Source of the DNA: Rhodospirillaceae bacterium
Lineage (GTDB): Bacteria; Pseudomonadota; Alphaproteobacteria; Rhodospirillales; Rhodospirillaceae
DNA: 64,000 nucleotides
Assembly (NCBI GenBank): GCA_029245025.1
Contig: JAQWQC010000031.1
Coordinates: 124,001 to 188,000 of the forward strand
Direction: 5' to 3'
Position numbers and translations under genes: made by a program. This document shows, in pieces, positions 37,263 through 51,601 of the stretch. The notes below the pieces were generated by a model, which searched no databases, was not told the DNA's origin, and was given only the letters and a program-made list of their open reading frames with translations. The first letter of the stretch is position 1, and each line of letters opens with the position of its first letter.

Positions 37263-38018
37263 CTAGTCCATGCGCTCAAGCATGCGATCCACCCAGCCCA
37301 ACAACCCTGAGGCACCGGATGTGTCGTCCAGGGGCGCCAGCGCCGGGCTTTGGTTTACTGAGCTCGCCACGTTGGTCTTTTCTCGCTGCGGCAGATATTT
37401 GTTGGTCGGCTTGTAGCCCATCTCTGGCATAAGGTCGCGTCCACCCCTTTTGCGAACCAGCCGGGAGACATCGGATTGCGGATCATTGAGATCTCCATAG
37501 TGGCGGGCGCCGGTGGGGCAAGTTAATACGCATGCGGGGACACGATCTTCCTGATCCAAGTTTTCGTTGTATATGCGGTCTACGCACAGGGTGCATTTTT
37601 TCATGACACCCTCGAATACATCGTATTCGCGAGCACCATAGGGGCAGGCCCAGGAACACAACTTACAACCGATGCACTTGTCTTCATCAACAAGCACGAT
37701 GCCGTCGGATGTGCGTTTGTAGGACGCTCCAGTAGGGCAAACGGCGACGCAGGCGGCATCTTCGCAATGCAGACAAGAGCGTGGGAAGTGCAGGCTCCGG
37801 CTGCTGCCTTCCGGCGTGGTCACTTCGTAGCTGTGCACCCGGTTAAACCATACGCCGTCGGCTTCTGCGCCGTAGGGATTGGTGTCGGTGAGGGGCGCCA
37901 TGTGGCCGCCGGTATTCCATTCCTTGCAGTTGGTCACACATGCCTGACAGCCGACGCAGGTGTCGAGATCAATAACCAGACCGAGTTTCCGTGTTGTCTT
38001 ATCAGGGAGGCACGTCAT
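37263..38018 (-). CDS. SoeB/DmsB-type four-cluster iron-sulfur subunit
   Basis: A 251-residue protein with four cysteine groups of ferredoxin type: CVGCQACVTNCKEW, CLHCEDAACVAVCPTGA, CIGCKLCSWACPYGA and CTLCVDRI with a later CVLTCPTGA. These bind four [4Fe-4S] clusters and carry electrons between the molybdenum subunit and the membrane anchor. There is no signal peptide, so it should be cytoplasmic. Its start overlaps the stop of the catalytic subunit gene by four bases (ATGA). Confidence 0.92.
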   Translation of the reverse strand: MTCLPDKTTRKLGLVIDLDTCVGCQACVTNCKEWNTGGHMAPLTDTNPYGAEADGVWFNRVHSYEVTTPEGSSRSLHFPRSCLHCEDAACVAVCPTGASYKRTSDGIVLVDEDKCIGCKLCSWACPYGAREYDVFEGVMKKCTLCVDRIYNENLDQEDRVPACVLTCPTGARHYGDLNDPQSDVSRLVRKRGGRDLMPEMGYKPTNKYLPQREKTNVASSVNQSPALAPLDDTSGASGLLGWVDRMLERMD

Positions 38019-40882
38019 TCCGCCAGCTCCCGGGTTTTGAAGCTGCGCCCATAATCGAGTTTCCCAGGACGCGGTGCATCACCGGTTGGGTCTCGCACTT
38101 CGTTGAACATAGGTTCCGTTAGGCCCTGCTCATCAGGTTCTGCTTTGGTGATGCGTACTCGGAGGTCAAACCAGGCGGCTTGCCCGGTGATCGGGTCAGA
38201 GTTTGACAGTGCGCCATCATCCAACTTCTCTGGGATGATGTGATTGAGCAGGAATGCCTGATTTGACTCAGGGGCACCTTTATCTAATCCCCAGCTGCCA
38301 CGACGTTTGCCGATCGCGTTCCAGGTCCACACGGTATTTTTGTTGACGCCGTCGACCAACTTGACTTGACCCTTTACCCGACCATGTCGCGATTCAACCC
38401 ACACCCAATCGTCATCGGCGACCCCAAACATCGCCGCAGTTTCATGATGAACAAACAGGCGATTCTGGGATGTGATCTGGCGCAGCCACGCGTTTTGTGA
38501 CCCCCAAGAGTGGTAGTGGTGCATTGGCCGCTGCGTTAGTGCGTGCAGCGGATAGGCCTCAGGGTCCGTTGCCTCATCTTCGAGGGTTGGATACCAACTG
38601 GGGAGCGGGTCGCAGGCTTGCTCAACTCGATCGCGCAAGTGGTCCGGTGGTTGATTGACCCCATGGCCGCGTGCGCCGTTACGAAATTTCTGTACTGGTT
38701 CGGAGTACAGTTGCATCACGATGTGGTCAGCTGATCCGAGAAAGCCCATGCCGACCGCCCAATCCAAATAGGCTTGATTGGCCATCTTGTAGTAACGGGC
38801 CTCTTTTGGAATTTCACCGTGATAGAAGCAACCGTTCTCAATATAGCGTTCAAGCTGATCTGGGTTGATCGAGCCATTGCCCTGGCTCTGCCCGTCTTCT
38901 CCCCGCCAACCGGCGAGCGGCCCAACTCCCGGCGCTCGTTCGTGATTAACAATGTAGTCAGCATACCCGCCAGGAAACTTTGGGCTGTTATCCTCATTTA
39001 CAAAACCGGACAAACCTAATCGCGCACCGAGATCAAGAAGCACTGTTTGGAAGGGCCGCACGTCGCGGTCGGGTTCGACGATGGGTTGGCGAATAGCGTC
39101 GCCAGCGCCTTCTGCATCACTGATGGGCCGGTCGAGAAGAGAGATGCAGTCCCAGCGTTCGAGATAGGTCGTATCTGGGAGAATAAGGTCCGCATAGGGG
39201 ATTGTTTCAGACACATAGGCGTCGCTGTAGATGATGTGTGGAATGCGGTAGTCGCCAGTATCCGGATCTGTCGCCGTCAATGCATCTAGGGTGCCTTGGA
39301 TATCCATGGACGAATTCCACGCCATATTCGCCATGTATAGAAACAGTGTGTCGATGGGGTAGGGATCACCCGCCGCGGCATTCGCGATGACCCGGTGCAT
39401 CGCGCCATGGGCTGACATTGGATTTTCCCACGTAAATGCTTTGTCGATGCGGATGGGTGTGCCGTCATCTTCAAGCAATAGGTCTTCAGGTCCGTTGGGG
39501 AAGCCAAGGGGCATGCCCGACAGGGGTGTATCTGGTGCATACCCTTTGCCGGCTGGCGTCGGTCCTGGTGGGACTGGCTTCGGAAACGGCGGCTTGTAGC
39601 GAAAACTCCCTGGGGTGTCGACAGCACCTATCAACATTTGCAGAAGGTGCAGCGCACGACAGGTTTGGAACCCATTGCTATGCGCCGATATGCCGCGCAT
39701 CGCATGCATTGCCACGGGGCGCCCGGTCATAGTTTCATGGCGCGTGCCCTTGCTATCGGTCCAAGAGATCGGAAGGCTAAGAGGATTGTTGAATGCGGCA
39801 TCCGCAATCTCTGCGGCCAAGCGTTTAATTGTTTCTGCGGATAGGCCACAACGCTCTGCCGCGGCATCAGGAGCATAGGCCTCATCGGTGTATCGGTCAG
39901 CGATCAATTGAAAAACAGGAACAGCGGATACGCCGTCAACTTGATGCGTGCCCGAGAGCGATGCGTGGACGCCTGCATCGGTATGAGGAGCTGCGTGACC
40001 GCGGTTGCGATCCCAAACCAGGGGTGTGCCTTCGGAGCCACGAATGAACAGACCGTCTTGTTCGTCTCCGGCTGTTTGTCGAACCAACCAACCCGCATTG
40101 GTGTAATTCAATAGGTACTCGAGATCGATCTTTCCGGCGCGCAGCAACTCATGGACCAGCGCAAGAACAAGTAACCCATCCGTACCTGGCCGAATGCCAA
40201 TCCAATCATCGGCGATCGCCGCATACCCGGTCCTCGCTGGGTTAATGGCAATGACTTTAGCGCCGCGTTCTTTAAGTTTGCCTAGACCGATTTTGATGGG
40301 GTTTGAGTCGTGGTCTTCGGCGACACCAAACATGAGGAAAAGGCGGGCATGGTCCCAATCCGGTTCTCCAAACTCCCAAAAGGACCCCCCTATAGAGTAC
40401 AAGCCTCCGGCGGCCATGTTCACAGAACAGAATCCGCCGTGGGCGGCAAAATTGGGGGTTCCGAATTGTTTGGCCCACCACCCGGTAAGCGATTGGCTTT
40501 GATCGCGGCCCGTAAAGAACGCTAGTTTCTTAGGGTCTGTTCTTCGAATGTCGCCGAGCCACGTTGTCGCTGTAGTGAGGGCTTCTTCCCACTCGATTTC
40601 TTCAAACTCACCGCTGCCGCGTGGTCCGACGCGCTTCAGGGGCTTACGCAGTCTGGCCGGGGACAAGTGGTTCATGATACCAGCAGCGCCCTTGCCGCAG
40701 AGCACACCTTTGTTGACAGGGTGATCGCGGTTGCCCTGTATGTAGCGAATTTGTCCGTCTTTCAGGAAGACGCGTATCCCGCAGCGGCAGGCGCACATAT
40801 AGCAGGTTGTGGTTTTGACCTCATCTGCCACCGGTGGAGACGTATCGACGCCATCGTTCTCTTTCGGGGCACCAAAATGCAT
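38015..40882 (-). CDS. soeA: Molybdopterin oxidoreductase catalytic subunit, probable SoeA sulfite dehydrogenase
   Basis: A 955-residue bis-MGD molybdoenzyme of the DMSO reductase superfamily. The N-terminal [4Fe-4S] motif uses Cys27, Cys30, Cys34 and Cys62 (CYMCACRCG and LCGKG). GKGAAGIMNHLSPARLRKPL, TGRDQSQSLTGWWAKQFG and the C-terminal VWTWNAIGKRRGSWGLDKG fit the SoeA group. There is no Tat signal, so the enzyme is cytoplasmic, unlike periplasmic DMSO reductase. SoeABC in purple sulfur bacteria and Roseobacters oxidises sulfite to sulfate in the cytoplasm and feeds the quinone pool. Support here: same three-subunit set with overlaps, and a rhodanese upstream. GGAG precedes ATG 40882. A formate or polysulfide role is less likely. 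Confidence 0.75.
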   Translation of the reverse strand: MHFGAPKENDGVDTSPPVADEVKTTTCYMCACRCGIRVFLKDGQIRYIQGNRDHPVNKGVLCGKGAAGIMNHLSPARLRKPLKRVGPRGSGEFEEIEWEEALTTATTWLGDIRRTDPKKLAFFTGRDQSQSLTGWWAKQFGTPNFAAHGGFCSVNMAAGGLYSIGGSFWEFGEPDWDHARLFLMFGVAEDHDSNPIKIGLGKLKERGAKVIAINPARTGYAAIADDWIGIRPGTDGLLVLALVHELLRAGKIDLEYLLNYTNAGWLVRQTAGDEQDGLFIRGSEGTPLVWDRNRGHAAPHTDAGVHASLSGTHQVDGVSAVPVFQLIADRYTDEAYAPDAAAERCGLSAETIKRLAAEIADAAFNNPLSLPISWTDSKGTRHETMTGRPVAMHAMRGISAHSNGFQTCRALHLLQMLIGAVDTPGSFRYKPPFPKPVPPGPTPAGKGYAPDTPLSGMPLGFPNGPEDLLLEDDGTPIRIDKAFTWENPMSAHGAMHRVIANAAAGDPYPIDTLFLYMANMAWNSSMDIQGTLDALTATDPDTGDYRIPHIIYSDAYVSETIPYADLILPDTTYLERWDCISLLDRPISDAEGAGDAIRQPIVEPDRDVRPFQTVLLDLGARLGLSGFVNEDNSPKFPGGYADYIVNHERAPGVGPLAGWRGEDGQSQGNGSINPDQLERYIENGCFYHGEIPKEARYYKMANQAYLDWAVGMGFLGSADHIVMQLYSEPVQKFRNGARGHGVNQPPDHLRDRVEQACDPLPSWYPTLEDEATDPEAYPLHALTQRPMHHYHSWGSQNAWLRQITSQNRLFVHHETAAMFGVADDDWVWVESRHGRVKGQVKLVDGVNKNTVWTWNAIGKRRGSWGLDKGAPESNQAFLLNHIIPEKLDDGALSNSDPITGQAAWFDLRVRITKAEPDEQGLTEPMFNEVRDPTGDAPRPGKLDYGRSFKTRELAE

Positions 40883-42576: not shown

Positions 42577-43791
42577 ATGGCTGGAAATGACGTCTTTTTT
42601 GTTCTGATGGGCGCAATCATGGTGCTGGCAATGCACGCTGGGTTCGCTTTTCTGGAAGTGGGGACTGTACGAAAAAAGAACCAGGTCAACGCCCTGGTCA
42701 AAATCATGGTCGATTTTGCTGGATCGACCCTGGCGTACTTCTTTATCGGGTATTCGATTGCCTACGGTATGGATTTCTTGAGTGCCGCTTCTGTAATAAG
42801 CGGTGATACAGGTGAAGGATACGCCCCACAGGGTTATGACCTGGTCAAATTCTTCTTCCTGCTAACCTTCGCTGCTGCGATCCCTGCCATTATCTCTGGC
42901 GGAATTGCGGAGCGCGCCCGTTTTTATCCGCAGTTGATTGCCACCGTTTTACTGGTCGCACTGATCTATCCATTATTCGAGGGCATGGTCTGGAATGGGA
43001 ATTTCGGCTTTCAAGATTTTATGGAAGCAACTTTCGGAGCTCCATTTAACGACTTCGCAGGGTCAATCGTCGTGCATGCAATGGGCGGATGGATTGCCTT
43101 GGCAGCGGTCATTATGCTCGGCGCAAGAAGCGGGCGCTACCATGCGGACGGACGCCTTCAGGCAATGCCTCCATCATCAGTACCTTGGCTTGCTCTTGGC
43201 GCTTGGATCCTCTCCGTCGGATGGTTCGGTTTTAACGTGATGAGCGCTCAGGGTGTTGAAGGTGTCACGGGATTAGTTGCCGTGAATTCGCTCATGGCCA
43301 TGGTTGGCGGCATTCTAGCGGCTCTGTTCGTTAGCAAGAATGACCCGGGCTTTGTCCATAATGGTGCATTGGCTGGTCTGGTGGCCGTTTGCGCTGGGTC
43401 GAACGTCATGCATCCAATTGGTGCCGCGGTTACGGGCAGTTTGGCGGGCACCCTCTTTGTTTGGGGTTTCAACCAATGTCAAAATAAATGGAAAATTGAC
43501 GACGTGCTAGGTGTTTGGCCCTTGCACGGCATGTGCGGCCTGCTCGGTGGTGTCATGTGCGGTGTATTTGGTCTTGAGGCCCTTGGGGGCATGGGTGGGG
43601 TTACATTTATGTCCCAACTAGTCGGTTCACTCTTCGGGGTGGTCGTCGCGCTAATCGGTGGCTTGGTCGTATACGGCCTACTTAAGAAAACGGTTGGTAT
43701 TCGGTTAACCGAAGAAGAAGAGTTTGCGGGAGCAGACTTGTCGATCCATCAGACCAGCGCTAATCCCGAAGAAGGTGTGCAACTCAGGTAG
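42577..43791 (+). CDS. amt: Ammonium transporter (Amt/Rh family)
   Basis: A 404-residue inner-membrane protein with about 11 helices. The family signature DFAGSIVVHAMGGWIALAAV gives one of the twin pore histidines, and PLHGMCGLLGGVMCG gives the other. The N-terminal MHAGFAFLEVGTVRKKNQVNAL (in two parts) matches the Amt start. It conducts ammonium for assimilation. No glnK or PII gene precedes it. AGAGG precedes ATG 42577, and a candidate sigma-54 promoter lies upstream. Confidence 0.93.
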   Translation: MAGNDVFFVLMGAIMVLAMHAGFAFLEVGTVRKKNQVNALVKIMVDFAGSTLAYFFIGYSIAYGMDFLSAASVISGDTGEGYAPQGYDLVKFFFLLTFAAAIPAIISGGIAERARFYPQLIATVLLVALIYPLFEGMVWNGNFGFQDFMEATFGAPFNDFAGSIVVHAMGGWIALAAVIMLGARSGRYHADGRLQAMPPSSVPWLALGAWILSVGWFGFNVMSAQGVEGVTGLVAVNSLMAMVGGILAALFVSKNDPGFVHNGALAGLVAVCAGSNVMHPIGAAVTGSLAGTLFVWGFNQCQNKWKIDDVLGVWPLHGMCGLLGGVMCGVFGLEALGGMGGVTFMSQLVGSLFGVVVALIGGLVVYGLLKKTVGIRLTEEEEFAGADLSIHQTSANPEEGVQLR

Positions 43792-44273: not shown

Positions 44274-45095
44274 CTAGAATGTTCTTACAGGTGTGCCGAG
44301 CAGCCAGTAGACCCAGACAAACAAGAACAGCCATACCACGTCAACGAAGTGCCAATACCAGGCGGCAGATTGGAAACCGATGTGTTTTTCAGCACTGAAC
44401 TGATTCTTCTGAGCGCGCATTGCGCAGACAATCAGGAATGTGGTTCCGACGAAGACGTGGAACCCGTGGAAACCGGTTGCAAGGTAGAAGGTCGATGGAT
44501 AAATGCCGTCGCTTAAGCCAAACGCAGCGTGTCCATATTCGAAGGCCTGTAGGCCGAGGAAGAGGACGCCAAGAACAGCTGTTATCCAAGTCCACTTTGC
44601 TGCTTTTTGGTTCATGCCGGCTTCGATGTAGAGGTGGGCGCGGGTAACGGTCACTCCAGATGTGAGTAGGATGACTGTATTGTAGAACGGCAAGTGCCAC
44701 GCATCGAGGACCTCAATGCCCTCGGGCGGCCATTGCATCGTTGCAGTGGAGAAGCCAAGTGAATGATGGAAGAAAGCCCAGAAAAACGCGGCAAAGAACA
44801 TCACTTCAGAGGCGATAAACAGAACCATGCCCATTCGAAGGCCAGTGCTAACTTTATCAGAATGCACGTGTTCTTTGACGGACTCTTTTACAACGTCACG
44901 CCACCACAACGCCATTGTGAGGACGACAAGAGCTAGGCCAGGGGCGACTTTGTATGCACCTGGTAATCCGAAAAATGCCTCGTCATGGAAGTAAAACACC
45001 GCGCCAATGGCGAGGAGTAAGGCTGAAAAGGCGCCCATTGCCGGCCAGGGGCTTGGGTTAACCATGTGATAGGGGTGATTTGCCTGTGCGCTCAT
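44274..45095 (-). CDS. coxC: Cytochrome c oxidase subunit III
   Basis: A 273-residue membrane protein with seven helices. Subunit III features: NHPYHMVNPSPWPAMGAFSA at the N-terminus, FIASEVMFFAAFFWAFFHHS, GFHGFHVFVGTTFL, and the C-terminal AAWYWHFVDVVWLFLFVWVY. It stabilises the core and may feed oxygen to the aa3 oxidase. Part of the minus-strand cox operon, 31 bases after ctaG. Confidence 0.95.
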   Translation of the reverse strand: MSAQANHPYHMVNPSPWPAMGAFSALLLAIGAVFYFHDEAFFGLPGAYKVAPGLALVVLTMALWWRDVVKESVKEHVHSDKVSTGLRMGMVLFIASEVMFFAAFFWAFFHHSLGFSTATMQWPPEGIEVLDAWHLPFYNTVILLTSGVTVTRAHLYIEAGMNQKAAKWTWITAVLGVLFLGLQAFEYGHAAFGLSDGIYPSTFYLATGFHGFHVFVGTTFLIVCAMRAQKNQFSAEKHIGFQSAAWYWHFVDVVWLFLFVWVYWLLGTPVRTF

Positions 45096-45126: not shown

Positions 45127-45744
45127 TCAGGTGCCGCCCAACTGGGCAGTTGTTAAAACAGTGTCAGCCTGAGAGATAAATTCAGGCTCTTTGTCAGGGA
45201 TATCGTCCAAAGTCCGATAGAATGTGTAGGACAATGTGATTGTTTGTACGTCGTTTGCCAGTTCATCTTCCAGGATCGCCGGGTCGACAAAAAATGTCAC
45301 CGGCATATCCACCGACTGCCCTGGCTTCAAGGCTTGCTCAACAAAGCAAAAGCATTCGATTTTGGAGAAATACTGTGCGGCCTTAATTGGTGTGACGTTG
45401 AAGGTTGAAATACCAGTTACAGGCTCATCAGAAAGATTGGTTGATCGATAGGAAGTCTGGTATTCCGCTCCCAGATTAACCGTGACCGATCGCTCATTCG
45501 GTACAAAGTCCCAGGGTAGGCCTCGATCAACATTAGAGTCGAACCTTACTGTGATTTCCTGTGTTGACACTTCATAATCGCTACGGTCCGCGACCTGAGG
45601 GGTGCCGCCGAGCCCAGTAACCTGACAAATCAACGTGTAAAGCGGTACGAAGGCAAAGGTCAGTCCAACCATTCCAGTAACCACGACAAATGCCGTAGCC
45701 GCTGTTCGACGGTTACGCCGGGCAAAGTCCGAGCGGGATGACAT
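45127..45744 (-). CDS. ctaG: Cytochrome c oxidase copper-assembly protein CtaG (Cox11)
   Basis: A 205-residue membrane-anchored periplasmic chaperone that delivers copper to the CuB site of subunit I. One transmembrane helix (ATAFVVVTGMVGLTFAFVPL) is followed by an immunoglobulin-like domain with the copper-binding motif IECFCFVEQ. It lies eight bases after the coxA stop and 31 bases before coxC, in the usual alphaproteobacterial order. Confidence 0.94.
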   Translation of the reverse strand: MSSRSDFARRNRRTAATAFVVVTGMVGLTFAFVPLYTLICQVTGLGGTPQVADRSDYEVSTQEITVRFDSNVDRGLPWDFVPNERSVTVNLGAEYQTSYRSTNLSDEPVTGISTFNVTPIKAAQYFSKIECFCFVEQALKPGQSVDMPVTFFVDPAILEDELANDVQTITLSYTFYRTLDDIPDKEPEFISQADTVLTTAQLGGT

Positions 45745-45752
45745 CCTCCGCT

Positions 45753-48259
<2,507 letters not shown>

Positions 48260-48796: not shown

Positions 48797-49231
48797 ATGA
48801 CAACGGCCAACGTCCTGCCTCATATAAATGCCGTCTTAAACAGCATCGCCACCGTTTTGCTGCTGATTGGTTTTGTATTGATCAAATCGGGTCGCAAAGA
48901 GGCCCACCGCACAATAATGACTGCAGCGATCGTAGTGTCTGCCGTATTCCTAGTGTCATATTTGACCTACCATTTCACAGCGCCGATCTTTGTGTTTCCT
49001 GGCACCGGGTGGGCCGTACCAGCCTATTACACCTTGCTTGTTTCCCATGTGGTTTTAGCGACCGTTGTGTCTCCGATGGTTGTGGTCACAGCTTGGCGCG
49101 CCTTTCATGGCGACTTTGATCGTCACAAAGTGATCGCGCGTTGGACGTGGCCGGTTTGGATGTTCGTCTCTGTATCCGGGGTCGCGGTGTATGCGATCCT
49201 TTACCATGTCTATCCGGCACCTGTGTCGTAA
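48797..49231 (+). CDS. DUF420 family membrane protein
   Basis: A 144-residue protein with four transmembrane helices. DUF420 features: LPHINAVLNSIATVLLLIGF with conserved His and Asn, HRTIMTAAIVVSAVFLVSYL, and a C-terminal HKVIARWTWPVWMFVSVSGV. In Firmicutes a DUF420 protein (CtaM/YozB) is needed for aa3 oxidase function, so an assembly role is likely. It stands 16 bases before the haem-copper-oxidase-like gene and near ctaB. Confidence 0.88.
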   Translation: MTTANVLPHINAVLNSIATVLLLIGFVLIKSGRKEAHRTIMTAAIVVSAVFLVSYLTYHFTAPIFVFPGTGWAVPAYYTLLVSHVVLATVVSPMVVVTAWRAFHGDFDRHKVIARWTWPVWMFVSVSGVAVYAILYHVYPAPVS

Positions 49232-49247
49232 GCTTAGATAGGCAATT

Positions 49248-50714
49248 ATGGGTTTTCATCTTACTCCACTTAAAGAGCACGACTTGGGGCCGCCTGAAGC
49301 GGCCATAGATGGGCATTTCGCCGGTCGTCTGACCGATGATCTTTTGTGGGAACTCAAAGGTTGGGTGGTTTTGCCCGTGGCCGCACTGGCGATTGCTGGG
49401 CTCATGGCTGTACTGGTAGCGCTACTCCGCATTCCAGGTGTGGAAGCAATTCTGCCTTGGACATCGCAAACATTTTTTGTGAAGGGACTAATCGCCCACG
49501 TTACCTTTGCTTTCGTCATTTGGTACCTCGGCGTGCAGGGCGCACTAACCGTTCTTGTGACTGCGGCCACCCGCCCTATGACAAAATTAGCTACCTTCGT
49601 CGGTCGTATCGGTTTATCTGCCGCTGGGCTGAGCTTTCTAGTGATCTTGACGCCCGTGCTTCTAAATTTGGGCGAGCCTTCAGCCAACAACTACATACCT
49701 GTTTTAATTCACCCAATATTCTTTGCAGGGCTAATGCTATTGGCGCTCGGTTTAGCGCTTCCCGTGATTCGACTATTGGCGCAAATTGCGGGCGAGAGAT
49801 CATGTGAACCAGTAGTGTTCGCGGTCGCCGCGTCTGGTGTGATCTTTCTCATCGCTCTGGTGTGTCTTGTTGCGGCTTGGTGGACGATGCCGGTCGGCAT
49901 GCCAGCCACTGATGCCGCGGAGCGGGTGTTCTGGGGCATGGGGCATGTCATGCAATTCGCCAACACGTTGCTTTTTTTAATCGGGTTCTTTCTTCTAAGC
50001 CGGATGTCACTCGGTGAAACACCAGTGTCCGATCGCGTTTTCAAGATTGTTGCAGCGGCCATGGTAGCGGGTGCGGCTGTCGGTCCTCTGTTCTATCTGA
50101 GTTTCCCGGCTGACGATCCGTCACAGGTCAATGCATTCACAGACCTCTACTGGTATGCCCTTCCTTTGCCAGCTGGCGTGGTGTTGCTTGGAACCTTTGT
50201 CTTGTTTCTCCGCCGGGCTCGCGACGTTAAGAGTCAGACTCCGGAGGTCATTGGTCTTTGGGTGGCGCTTCTGTTGTTTGGCTTCGGGGGCCTCATAGGG
50301 TTTTTTGAGAGTTCTGTGGATACACGGACGCCAGCCCACTACCACGCCGAACTTATCGGCGTGACCTTGGTGTTTATGTGTCTATATTTCGCGCTGTTCG
50401 CGCAGTTGCTTGATCGACCCTTGCCAGCCAGGAAATGGCGTATAGCGTCCTATGTTTTGCTTGGAACAGGCCAACTTTTTCATTCCGTCGGGCTTTTCTC
50501 AGCCGGGTTGGACGGCGTGGCCCGCAAGGTCGCAGGTGGCGAACAAGGGCTGGACAGTGCGACAAAACTGTCGTCTATGGCGTTTATGGGGCTCGGTGGT
50601 CTGATCGCGGTGATCGGTGGCGTGATCTTTGTCGTTTTGGCCAGTCGCTGTCTTTTGATACAACCCACGAAAGACGCGCTGGACACGTTAGAGCAAACGG
50701 TCGATCCGGCATAA
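49248..50714 (+). CDS. Divergent haem-copper-oxidase-like subunit I lacking the CuB His-His pair
   Basis: A 488-residue membrane protein with about 12 helices. Compared by eye with CoxA in this window: AHVTFAFVIWYLGVQGAL (His84) matches helix II with the haem ligand; FWGMGHVMQFANTLLFLIG (His233) matches the helix VI CuB region, with the tyrosine missing; AHYHAELIGVTLVFM (His364, His366) matches helix X AHFHYVLS with two haem ligands; GQLFHSVGLFSAGLDGVARK matches the [12 protein letters not shown] loop. The helix VII His-His pair is absent. It may bind two haems but cannot form normal CuB. Role unknown: haem handling, sensing or a novel reductase. It lies between DUF420 and ctaB, all co-oriented. 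Confidence 0.8.
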   Translation: MGFHLTPLKEHDLGPPEAAIDGHFAGRLTDDLLWELKGWVVLPVAALAIAGLMAVLVALLRIPGVEAILPWTSQTFFVKGLIAHVTFAFVIWYLGVQGALTVLVTAATRPMTKLATFVGRIGLSAAGLSFLVILTPVLLNLGEPSANNYIPVLIHPIFFAGLMLLALGLALPVIRLLAQIAGERSCEPVVFAVAASGVIFLIALVCLVAAWWTMPVGMPATDAAERVFWGMGHVMQFANTLLFLIGFFLLSRMSLGETPVSDRVFKIVAAAMVAGAAVGPLFYLSFPADDPSQVNAFTDLYWYALPLPAGVVLLGTFVLFLRRARDVKSQTPEVIGLWVALLLFGFGGLIGFFESSVDTRTPAHYHAELIGVTLVFMCLYFALFAQLLDRPLPARKWRIASYVLLGTGQLFHSVGLFSAGLDGVARKVAGGEQGLDSATKLSSMAFMGLGGLIAVIGGVIFVVLASRCLLIQPTKDALDTLEQTVDPA

Positions 50715-50734: not shown

Positions 50735-51601
50735 ATGACGCTTTCCCGATATATTGAGTTATTGAAGCTACGCATTGGCGCTTTGCTCGCGATTACCGCG
50801 ATGGCGGGATACTTTGCCGTCGCGGAGACTGTTCAGTGGGGCCCGCTCCTGGCTGTCGTGGTGGCGATGCTTCTGTGTTCTTCTGGGTCTTCTGTTTTTA
50901 ATCACTTTTATGATCGTGACATTGATCAGAAGATGGAGCGCACCCGCAACAGGCCCTTGGCATCGGGAGCGATGCATGATCCAAATTTAGCGTTATGGCT
51001 TGCCGGTGTCCTTCTGGTCGCAGGCTGCGCCCTAGCTGTTGTTGCCTTGAACTGGGTGGTCGCTTTGCACCTTGCCCTTGGCGCGTTCACTTACATGATC
51101 GTTTATACGGTGTGGCTGAAGCGGCGCCATTGGATGAATATTGTCATCGGCGGTGCGGCAGGAAGTTTTCCTGTTTTAGCAGGAGCGGCAGCGGCAGATC
51201 CTAGCGCCTTCACGCTGCCAATGTTGATGGCCATCACTTTGTTTCTCTGGACGCCGTCCCATTTTTGGGCTTTGGCGATGATGATCAAAGACGATTACGC
51301 CAAGGCGGGTGTGCCGATGTTACCGGTCTTGGTTGGGGACGAAAAGTGCGCCAAATATATGATGGTCAACACCGTGTTGCTGGTTGTCTCCGCAGCGCTA
51401 CCCGTCACGTTTGGTGAACTAGGTCTCGTATATTTCGTGATTAGCAGTGCTTTCGGCCTTCGGTTCGTATGGCTCAATTGGAATCTTGTGCTGGATCCCA
51501 GCAAAGTCTTGGCGCGGAAAATTTTCTTCTTTTCTATGAGTTACTTGGCCGTCGTCTTTGTTGCCATCGTGGTGGACCGCAACATACCGCTACAATTCTA
51601 A
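50735..51601 (+). CDS. ctaB: Protohaem IX farnesyltransferase (haem O synthase)
   Basis: A 288-residue UbiA-family prenyltransferase with about nine helices that makes haem O from haem B, feeding haem a of the aa3 oxidase. The first aspartate motif is FNHFYDRDIDQKMERTRNRPL and the second part holds YTVWLKRRHWMNIVIGGAAG, both expected in CtaB. ATG 50735 starts the domain; the frame is open far upstream but overlaps the previous gene. It lies 20 bases after the oxidase-like gene and probably shares its transcript. Confidence 0.94.
   Translation: MTLSRYIELLKLRIGALLAITAMAGYFAVAETVQWGPLLAVVVAMLLCSSGSSVFNHFYDRDIDQKMERTRNRPLASGAMHDPNLALWLAGVLLVAGCALAVVALNWVVALHLALGAFTYMIVYTVWLKRRHWMNIVIGGAAGSFPVLAGAAAADPSAFTLPMLMAITLFLWTPSHFWALAMMIKDDYAKAGVPMLPVLVGDEKCAKYMMVNTVLLVVSAALPVTFGELGLVYFVISSAFGLRFVWLNWNLVLDPSKVLARKIFFFSMSYLAVVFVAIVVDRNIPLQF

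Follow-up and report, generated by a model that had tools for sequence, protein, structure and literature searches.

A CuB-free relative of haem-copper oxidase subunit I encoded between DUF420 and ctaB genes beside the aa3 oxidase genes of a Rhodospirillaceae bacterium

The stretch of DNA analysed here (64,000 nucleotides, referred to as the window) contains two divergent groups of genes. An operon on the forward strand comprises a DUF420 (ctaM-like) gene, a gene for a protein related to subunit I of haem-copper oxidases, and ctaB, while the genes coxB, coxA, ctaG and coxC of an aa3 oxidase are located on the reverse strand. The product of the middle gene of the operon (49248-50714) was given the label HCOL, which was coined for this study. 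The genes and the codons discussed below are the following (for the two alignment sets, see below):

44274..45095, reverse strand: coxC, subunit III of the aa3 oxidase; assigned by eye, gene order kept in relatives
45127..45744, reverse strand: ctaG, Cox11-type CuB chaperone; assigned by eye, gene order kept in relatives
45753..47414, reverse strand: coxA, subunit I of the aa3 oxidase; TIGR02891 above the cut-off, motifs HPEVY, WAHHMY and HFH intact
47411..48259, reverse strand: coxB, subunit II of the aa3 oxidase; COX2 (PF00116), E 4.6e-48; divergent from the HCOL gene
48797..49231, forward strand: DUF420 (CtaM-like) gene; PF04238, E 1.7e-39; 16 nt upstream of the HCOL gene
49248..50714, forward strand: HCOL gene, CuB-less COX1-like protein of 488 aa with 12 transmembrane helices; Pfam COX1 and fold
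49497..49499, forward strand: codon of His84 in helix II, ligand of the low-spin haem by homology; 80 of 80 covering sequences of the first set, 40 of 40 of the second
49944..49946, forward strand: codon of His233 in helix VI, corresponding to the first CuB ligand; 81 of 81 sequences of the first set, 40 of 40 of the second
50091..50096, forward strand: codons of Phe282-Tyr283, in place of the CuB His-His pair of helix VII of ba3 oxidase; profile alignment to ba3 His282/His283
50337..50345, forward strand: codons of His364-Tyr365-His366 in helix X, ligands of the high- and low-spin haems by homology; 81 of 81 sequences of the first set, both histidines in 40 of 40 of the second
50523..50528, forward strand: codons of Arg426-Lys427, opposite the Arg pair of CoxA in the alignment; 80 of 80 sequences of the first set
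50735..51601, forward strand: ctaB, haem O synthase of 288 aa; UbiA (PF01040), E 6e-57, scanned with one extra N-terminal residue in the query; 20 nt downstream of the HCOL gene

The HCOL gene thus keeps company with haem O and aa3 genes. Elsewhere in the window, two open reading frames were assigned by eye, one resembling an ammonium transporter (Amt; 42577-43791, approximately 0.5 kb past the end of coxC) and a large one resembling a molybdopterin oxidoreductase (38015-40882).

HCOL matched the Pfam family COX1 (PF00115) over residues 40-447 with an E value of 3.7e-11 and 43 bits, the cut-off being 34.8, and together with the fold described below this bears out its proposed kinship to subunit I of haem-copper oxidases. 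The NCBIfam models gave no match to the window protein, and in a phmmer search of the PDB this single sequence found no match either, unlike the family profile. HCOL is encoded by a single-copy gene. At an E value of 0.01 the window genome contains two proteins of the COX1 family, namely the CoxA encoded in the window and HCOL, and one COX2 domain (PF00116), that of the CoxB encoded in the window. There is also one CtaA, encoded on another contig than the window; HCOL as a replacement for CtaA was ruled out by its presence.

Relatives of HCOL were collected in a species-level scan with one genome per species. It yielded 402 loci with a relative, the best 80 of which were examined; most of these 80 originate from MAGs. 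Together with the window protein they constitute the first alignment set of 81 sequences. A second set of 40 sequences comprised the window protein, one sequence from a genome of the same family and 38 from Pseudomonadota genomes outside the class. The histidines 84, 233, 364 and 366, which had been pointed out before as kept haem-site residues, proved to be correctly positioned and conserved in both sets. In the first set His233, His364 and His366 are invariant along with Tyr365, Gln236, Glu225 and Trp229 (81/81); His84, Arg61, Arg426 and Lys427 are present in 80 of 80 sequences, one of the 81 rows being gapped. Gln236 is also found in all 40 sequences of the second set. A loop similar to HFLGLAG had been proposed as well. 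A counterpart of it does exist, but it is better named an AGxxGVxRK segment, in which Arg426 and Lys427 align with the Arg pair of CoxA; we take the latter to serve in binding of the haem propionates.

The CuB site differs. In place of the His-His pair of WAHHMY, HCOL has Phe282-Tyr283, and an HH was not found in the helix VII region of any of the 81 sequences of the first or the 40 of the second set. The loss of the pair stated in the first-pass annotation therefore stands, and as far as helix VII is concerned it is not contradicted by the homologues, in which an intact pair had been named beforehand as one finding that would overturn it. The missing cross-linked tyrosine of helix VI was affirmed too: in an alignment with a profile of 65 family members, the helix VI tyrosine of ba3 oxidase (H+4) aligns with Phe237 of the window HCOL (the ba3 numbering in this alignment was obtained by subtracting an offset of 7, according to our own count). 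Residue 237 is F in 56, L in 10, Y in nine, V in three and I in three of the 81 sequences of the first set. Out of the three CuB/FeB histidines by which a catalytic haem-copper oxidase is recognized, HCOL possesses only that of helix VI. At the position of the second histidine of the pair, Tyr283 prevails in the first set (71/81), while the second set (n = 40) exhibits His in 13, Phe in 10, Tyr in five and another residue in 12 sequences (Y, H, F, Q, E, M, V, L, G and S altogether). Since one histidine persists at position 283 in these 13 of the 40 rows (L103-L106, L108, L109, L111, L115, L119, L120, L137, L138 and L140), the CuB site seems to have been lost in a graded, stepwise manner across the wider family, as judged from the alignment. 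Other COX1 proteins of genomes containing HCOL, named after their motifs as cNOR, qNOR, CcoN, sNOR and a 'PHHLL' group, do have the HH pair, and in a fitting motif. Here, sNOR designates proteins of the type of L006, L009 and L053, which we presume to be such enzymes. The exception is a qNOR-like protein at L159 (G059:C19:56500-59000), a COX1 frame of 686 aa that lacks the HH pair and keeps the HxH of helix X; it is possibly of the NO-dismutase kind.

An AlphaFold2 model of HCOL, calculated with a 65-row alignment as input, showed 12 long helices with a mean pLDDT of 87.6 and a pTM of 0.89. His84 is located in the helix 76-106, His233 in the helix 220-255 and His364/His366 in the helix 360-387. 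Structural comparison by VIA-align gave Z values of 28.3-30.1 and rmsd values of 3.0-3.9 Å over 410-438 residues for the 50 matches listed, all of which are titled cytochrome oxidases, respiratory complexes or supercomplexes. The best identity among these listed matches was 18-19% (Thermus ba3). Similarly, the HCOL family profile detected subunit I entries of Thermus ba3 in the PDB (best E value 1.1e-16) and 7deg, and in the alignment with ba3 His84, His364 and His366 fall on its haem ligands. Judging by the fold and the alignment, the four histidines should converge on haem pockets.

HCOL is a widespread, little-studied family. At E <= 1e-60, 57 of 398 sampled genomes of Pseudomonadota gave a match. 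Besides the window genome, these are one from the same family, another from the same class and 54 from elsewhere in the phylum. At the same threshold, the five other listed genomes of the window's order did not match. When 289 genomes of the class were searched with the single protein, 13 matched at 1e-5, five of them with family-like frames or pieces. The remaining matches are frames of 566-613 aa, two of which were read and turned out to be sNOR-like with an HH pair. Named loci originate also from Nitrospinota, Deltaproteobacteria, Candidatus Halobeggiatoa and one record labelled Stygiobacter. CtaD_CoxA of NCBIfam was matched by four of 65 HCOL members at an E value of 0.001 or better, and a search of plasmid records did not reveal a relative of L088. 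A subfamily, counted within the 57 matching genomes, carries C-terminal repeats. By eye, HCOL is fused there to TPR-like repeats at L127, L128, L131, L132 and L133. A cytochrome with 11 CXXCH motifs is encoded near L127 and another near L130; at the latter locus the repeats have a frame of their own.

For coarse grouping only, a quick maximum-likelihood tree of 118 rows was calculated without bootstrap and with a long-branch warning. It included 56 of the 65 rows of the family alignment A3, 27 of the 40 rows of the second set and 35 other COX1 proteins; the other nine A3 and 13 second-set rows had been left out beforehand. All 83 HCOL rows resided on one side of a branch with a support of 100, and sNOR was placed beside them, likewise with a support of 100. 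Since the other COX1 groups have the HH pair, its loss in an HCOL ancestor would be the simpler reading. The window protein formed a clade with L021 and L023 (support 100), which in this quick, long-branch-affected tree stands beside a clade of 25 rows, 24 of them with a CuA gene (support 85). The window HCOL and the Magnetospirillum members belong to one clade of 53 rows (support 99). The gammaproteobacterial Halobeggiatoa row L071 falls among the rows of the second set.

The gene context was studied with profiles that we built from the 80 loci themselves, the seeds being the window genes as well as L004 for CtaA and L006 for sNOR. Within 5 kb and on the same strand, the best 80 of the 402 loci contained DUF420, adjacent to HCOL, in 53 cases, ctaB in 59, SCO in 17 and sNOR subunit I in 11. 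On either strand, CoxA was found within 5 kb of 42 and CtaA within 5 kb of 10 of these 80 loci. HCOL and ctaA are consecutive on one strand at L121-L126 and L136. Out of the 59 loci whose flanks extend for 2 kb in either direction, 11 had none of ctaA, ctaB and DUF420 within 5 kb. An ordinary COX1 protein was detected in every HCOL genome searched (53/53 and 28/28; best E value 1e-113 or better), the match exceeding 500 bits in 40 of the 53 genomes. CtaA was present in 51 of 53 and was not found in G318 and G323, two genomes of unstated completeness. We also noticed a fusion of cytochrome b/b6, 4Fe-4S and FlpD domains encoded shortly before HCOL (L096:4872-6434; Pfam scan of the L096 copy). 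Such fusions occur, together with sNOR genes, at 10 Magnetospirillum-type loci among the best 80 of 402 and precede HCOL also at the second-set loci L107, L110 and L112.

At 28 of the best 80 of the 402 loci, HCOL is directly followed on its own strand by a gene for a COX2-like protein, which has approximately 150-195 aa where the start is clear. A second count gave 25 partners above 120 bits and two weaker ones, L049 appearing in the first count only. The CuA motif was present in all 25 adjacent partners scoring above 120 bits, and the three partner proteins that were scanned all matched the Pfam COX2 domain. An alignment of 11 partner subunits showed no variation in the His, Cys, Cys, His and Met ligands of CuA and almost none in Glu. 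The corresponding profile detected CuA subunits in the PDB, e.g., 6pty_A (1e-17) and subunit II of ba3 (1ehk_B, 4.5e-17). As 59 of the 80 best loci have 2 kb on each side and absence of a partner cannot always be judged from the locus elsewhere, whole genomes were searched, namely those of 53 HCOL bearers (49 of them represented among the 80 loci, and four others). Strong matches of at least 163 bits were obtained for the 11 genomes in which the gene had already been seen, but not for the remaining 42. For 18 of the latter the best match reached 102-145 bits and adjoined a COX1 hit of sNOR size on the same contig. The window genome (G000) did not contain a CuA-type partner gene at an E value of 1e-5. 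In G605, a genome of the window's own family, the order is DUF420, HCOL, CuA subunit (L102). The subunit II genes in 28 of 80 relatives point to a present or former wired redox complex devoid of CuB. HCOL probably first arose as such a CuA-wired two-subunit complex, whose CuA gene would have been lost in the lineage of the window; trait counts on the tree did not separate gain of the CuA gene from its loss.

We lean towards the view that HCOL is a CuB-free haem protein of the COX1 superfamily which holds two haems, acts in electron transfer or in the binding of gaseous ligands and was ancestrally wired to CuA. Most likely it binds two haems, the low-spin one via His84 and His366. The second haem would have His364 as its single protein ligand and would face His233, Tyr283 and Gln236 instead of CuB, an arrangement that would rule out the usual four-electron reduction of O2 and thus an ordinary oxidase. 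In the ancestral wiring, electrons would have passed from a periplasmic donor to CuA, on to the low-spin haem and then to the second haem. Because the window copy is kept in an operon with ctaM and ctaB, adjacent to the aa3 genes, haem O or A is its probable cofactor, and it would act side by side with the aa3 oxidase. A redox role in the window has, however, no obvious electron entry since the genome lacks a CuA partner. We place electron transfer or gas binding a little ahead of aa3 maturation for the window HCOL because of the CuA pairing in many relatives and because a subfamily is encoded near multihaem cytochromes (two loci).

A possible but less probable explanation is that HCOL is a maturation factor of the aa3 oxidase, which either binds freshly synthesized haem O or A or feeds electrons to haem A synthase. 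HCOL, CtaM and CtaB would then load subunit I together, the COX1 fold being a dummy acceptor or a haem relay. The tight operon of the window with its short spacers argues for this function, as do the frequent adjacency of DUF420, the vicinity of ctaB and CoxA, the loci with consecutive HCOL and ctaA genes, and the ordinary COX1 proteins and CtaA in the HCOL genomes. Against it speaks that these co-occurrences of aa3 and CtaA are counts within HCOL genomes alone and that operons of any haem O/A enzyme would also include ctaA and ctaB. Further points against maturation are the two HCOL genomes in which no CtaA was found, the 11 loci without ctaA, ctaB and DUF420 in the vicinity and the CuA-type subunit II gene of the 28 relatives, for which there is no obvious need in a haem chaperone. 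For the last reason, and because a Magnetospirillum protein answering to this description was reportedly purified and sequenced long before, the new enzyme supporting aa3 assembly that the first-pass annotation had suggested does not suit the family as its basic role, but the CuA-less lineage of the window may still fit it. As for the known components, the route of haem A into subunit I is described as unknown (PMC9145763), which leaves room for such a factor; according to the same paper, the aa3 oxidases of Staphylococcus and Bacillus depend on CtaM for their activity, with a probable action at a late stage rather than in haem insertion. An origin of CtaA from DUF420 has been proposed (PMC8239418).

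Both lines of thought can be joined in a more speculative proposal, which we regard as rather doubtful: the family would be a distinct CuB-free COX1 class for oxidase biogenesis, loaded with haem O or A, that trades electrons or haem with CtaB, CtaA and CtaM during the synthesis of haem and its loading into subunit I of aa3. The CuA-wired proteins would represent the ancestral redox form and the window protein a version serving assembly only.

It is improbable that HCOL is a haem-based gas or redox sensor for O2, NO or CO. The second haem with its possibly free distal side and the conserved Tyr/His/Gln set would suit a sensor, and at the TPR-type locus L127 frames resembling a response regulator and a histidine kinase were noticed by eye on the same strand, no more than approximately 4 kb away. 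None of the HCOL frames that were read is, however, fused to a kinase, cyclase or DNA-binding domain; the fusions observed are the TPR-like repeats assigned by eye. Slightly more improbable still is an NO reductase or another enzyme with a rebuilt metal site, in which iron would be bound by His233 and new ligands. The position of HCOL beside sNOR in the tree, the GHxxQxxN sequence common to both and the sNOR genes at 11 of the 80 loci point in this direction, but no conserved set of acidic residues or histidines replaces the HH pair, and residue 283, mostly tyrosine in the first set, varies in the second.

The HCOL gene is kept by purifying selection. Compared with L017, the window gene showed a dN of 0.033 and a dS of 0.456; with L018 and L022, dN was 0.07 and dS approximately 2 (dN 0.072/dS 1.9), while dS was saturated for L019, L021 and L023. 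The dN of CoxA amounted to about half of that of HCOL or less (pairs with L017, L018, L021 and L022). A decaying, functionless pseudo-oxidase, as might be assumed from the lost metal site and the missing CuA partner in the window genome, is very improbable in view of this strong selection and of haem ligands conserved across classes and phyla.

In the superfamily, reduction of dioxygen depends on the haem/CuB pair, and a large family that has conserved the haem ligands without CuB and, in many lineages, retains a CuA subunit poses the question of other uses of the scaffold. The handling of haem O and A on its way to aa3 becomes testable in culturable relatives belonging to Terasakiella, Aestuariispira and Magnetospirillum.

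Among known systems, the CoxA of the window shares the fold and the haem-ligand histidines with HCOL, but the two are only 17% identical, and HPEVY and WAHHMY of CoxA are opposed to GHVMQF and PLFYLS in HCOL. Thermus ba3, a B-family oxidase, was the best named match of the HCOL profile in the PDB, and its subunit II was among the best ones for the CuA partner. While ba3 possesses three CuB histidines and a cross-linked tyrosine, HCOL has one of the three histidines, no pair and no such tyrosine. The sNOR-type proteins (L006, L009, L053 and others) resemble HCOL in the helix VI sequence GHxxQxxN; they also have their own CuA-type subunit II and a ctaB nearby. They differ by the retained HH pair and by longer frames (~500-600 aa).

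The closest counterpart may be the cytochrome a1-like hemoprotein of Magnetospirillum (now Paramagnetospirillum) magnetotacticum, which was reportedly purified in 1993 by Tamegai, Yamanaka and Fukumori and whose genes were reportedly described by Tanimura and Fukumori in 2000. It is said to be COX1-like with the haem histidines kept, to lack the CuB ligands, to contain haems a and b and to be without cytochrome c oxidase activity. This protein may be the founding member of the HCOL family; so far an orphan, it would gain a broad family and a frequent ctaM/ctaB context. In the literature covered by our search, from which subscription journals are mostly absent, no paper on CuB-less relatives or on the Magnetospirillum protein was found. 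Genomes of Paramagnetospirillum and Magnetospirillum hold HCOL members, all of them with a CuA partner except L061 (M. moscoviense), and the comparison was made with the loci of these relatives. The window HCOL is 37-42% identical to the Magnetospirillum-type rows of A3. Whereas the Magnetospirillum-type proteins are mostly encoded with a CuA partner and an sNOR cluster, the window copy has no CuA gene and resides in the ctaM-HCOL-ctaB operon beside the genes of the aa3 oxidase.
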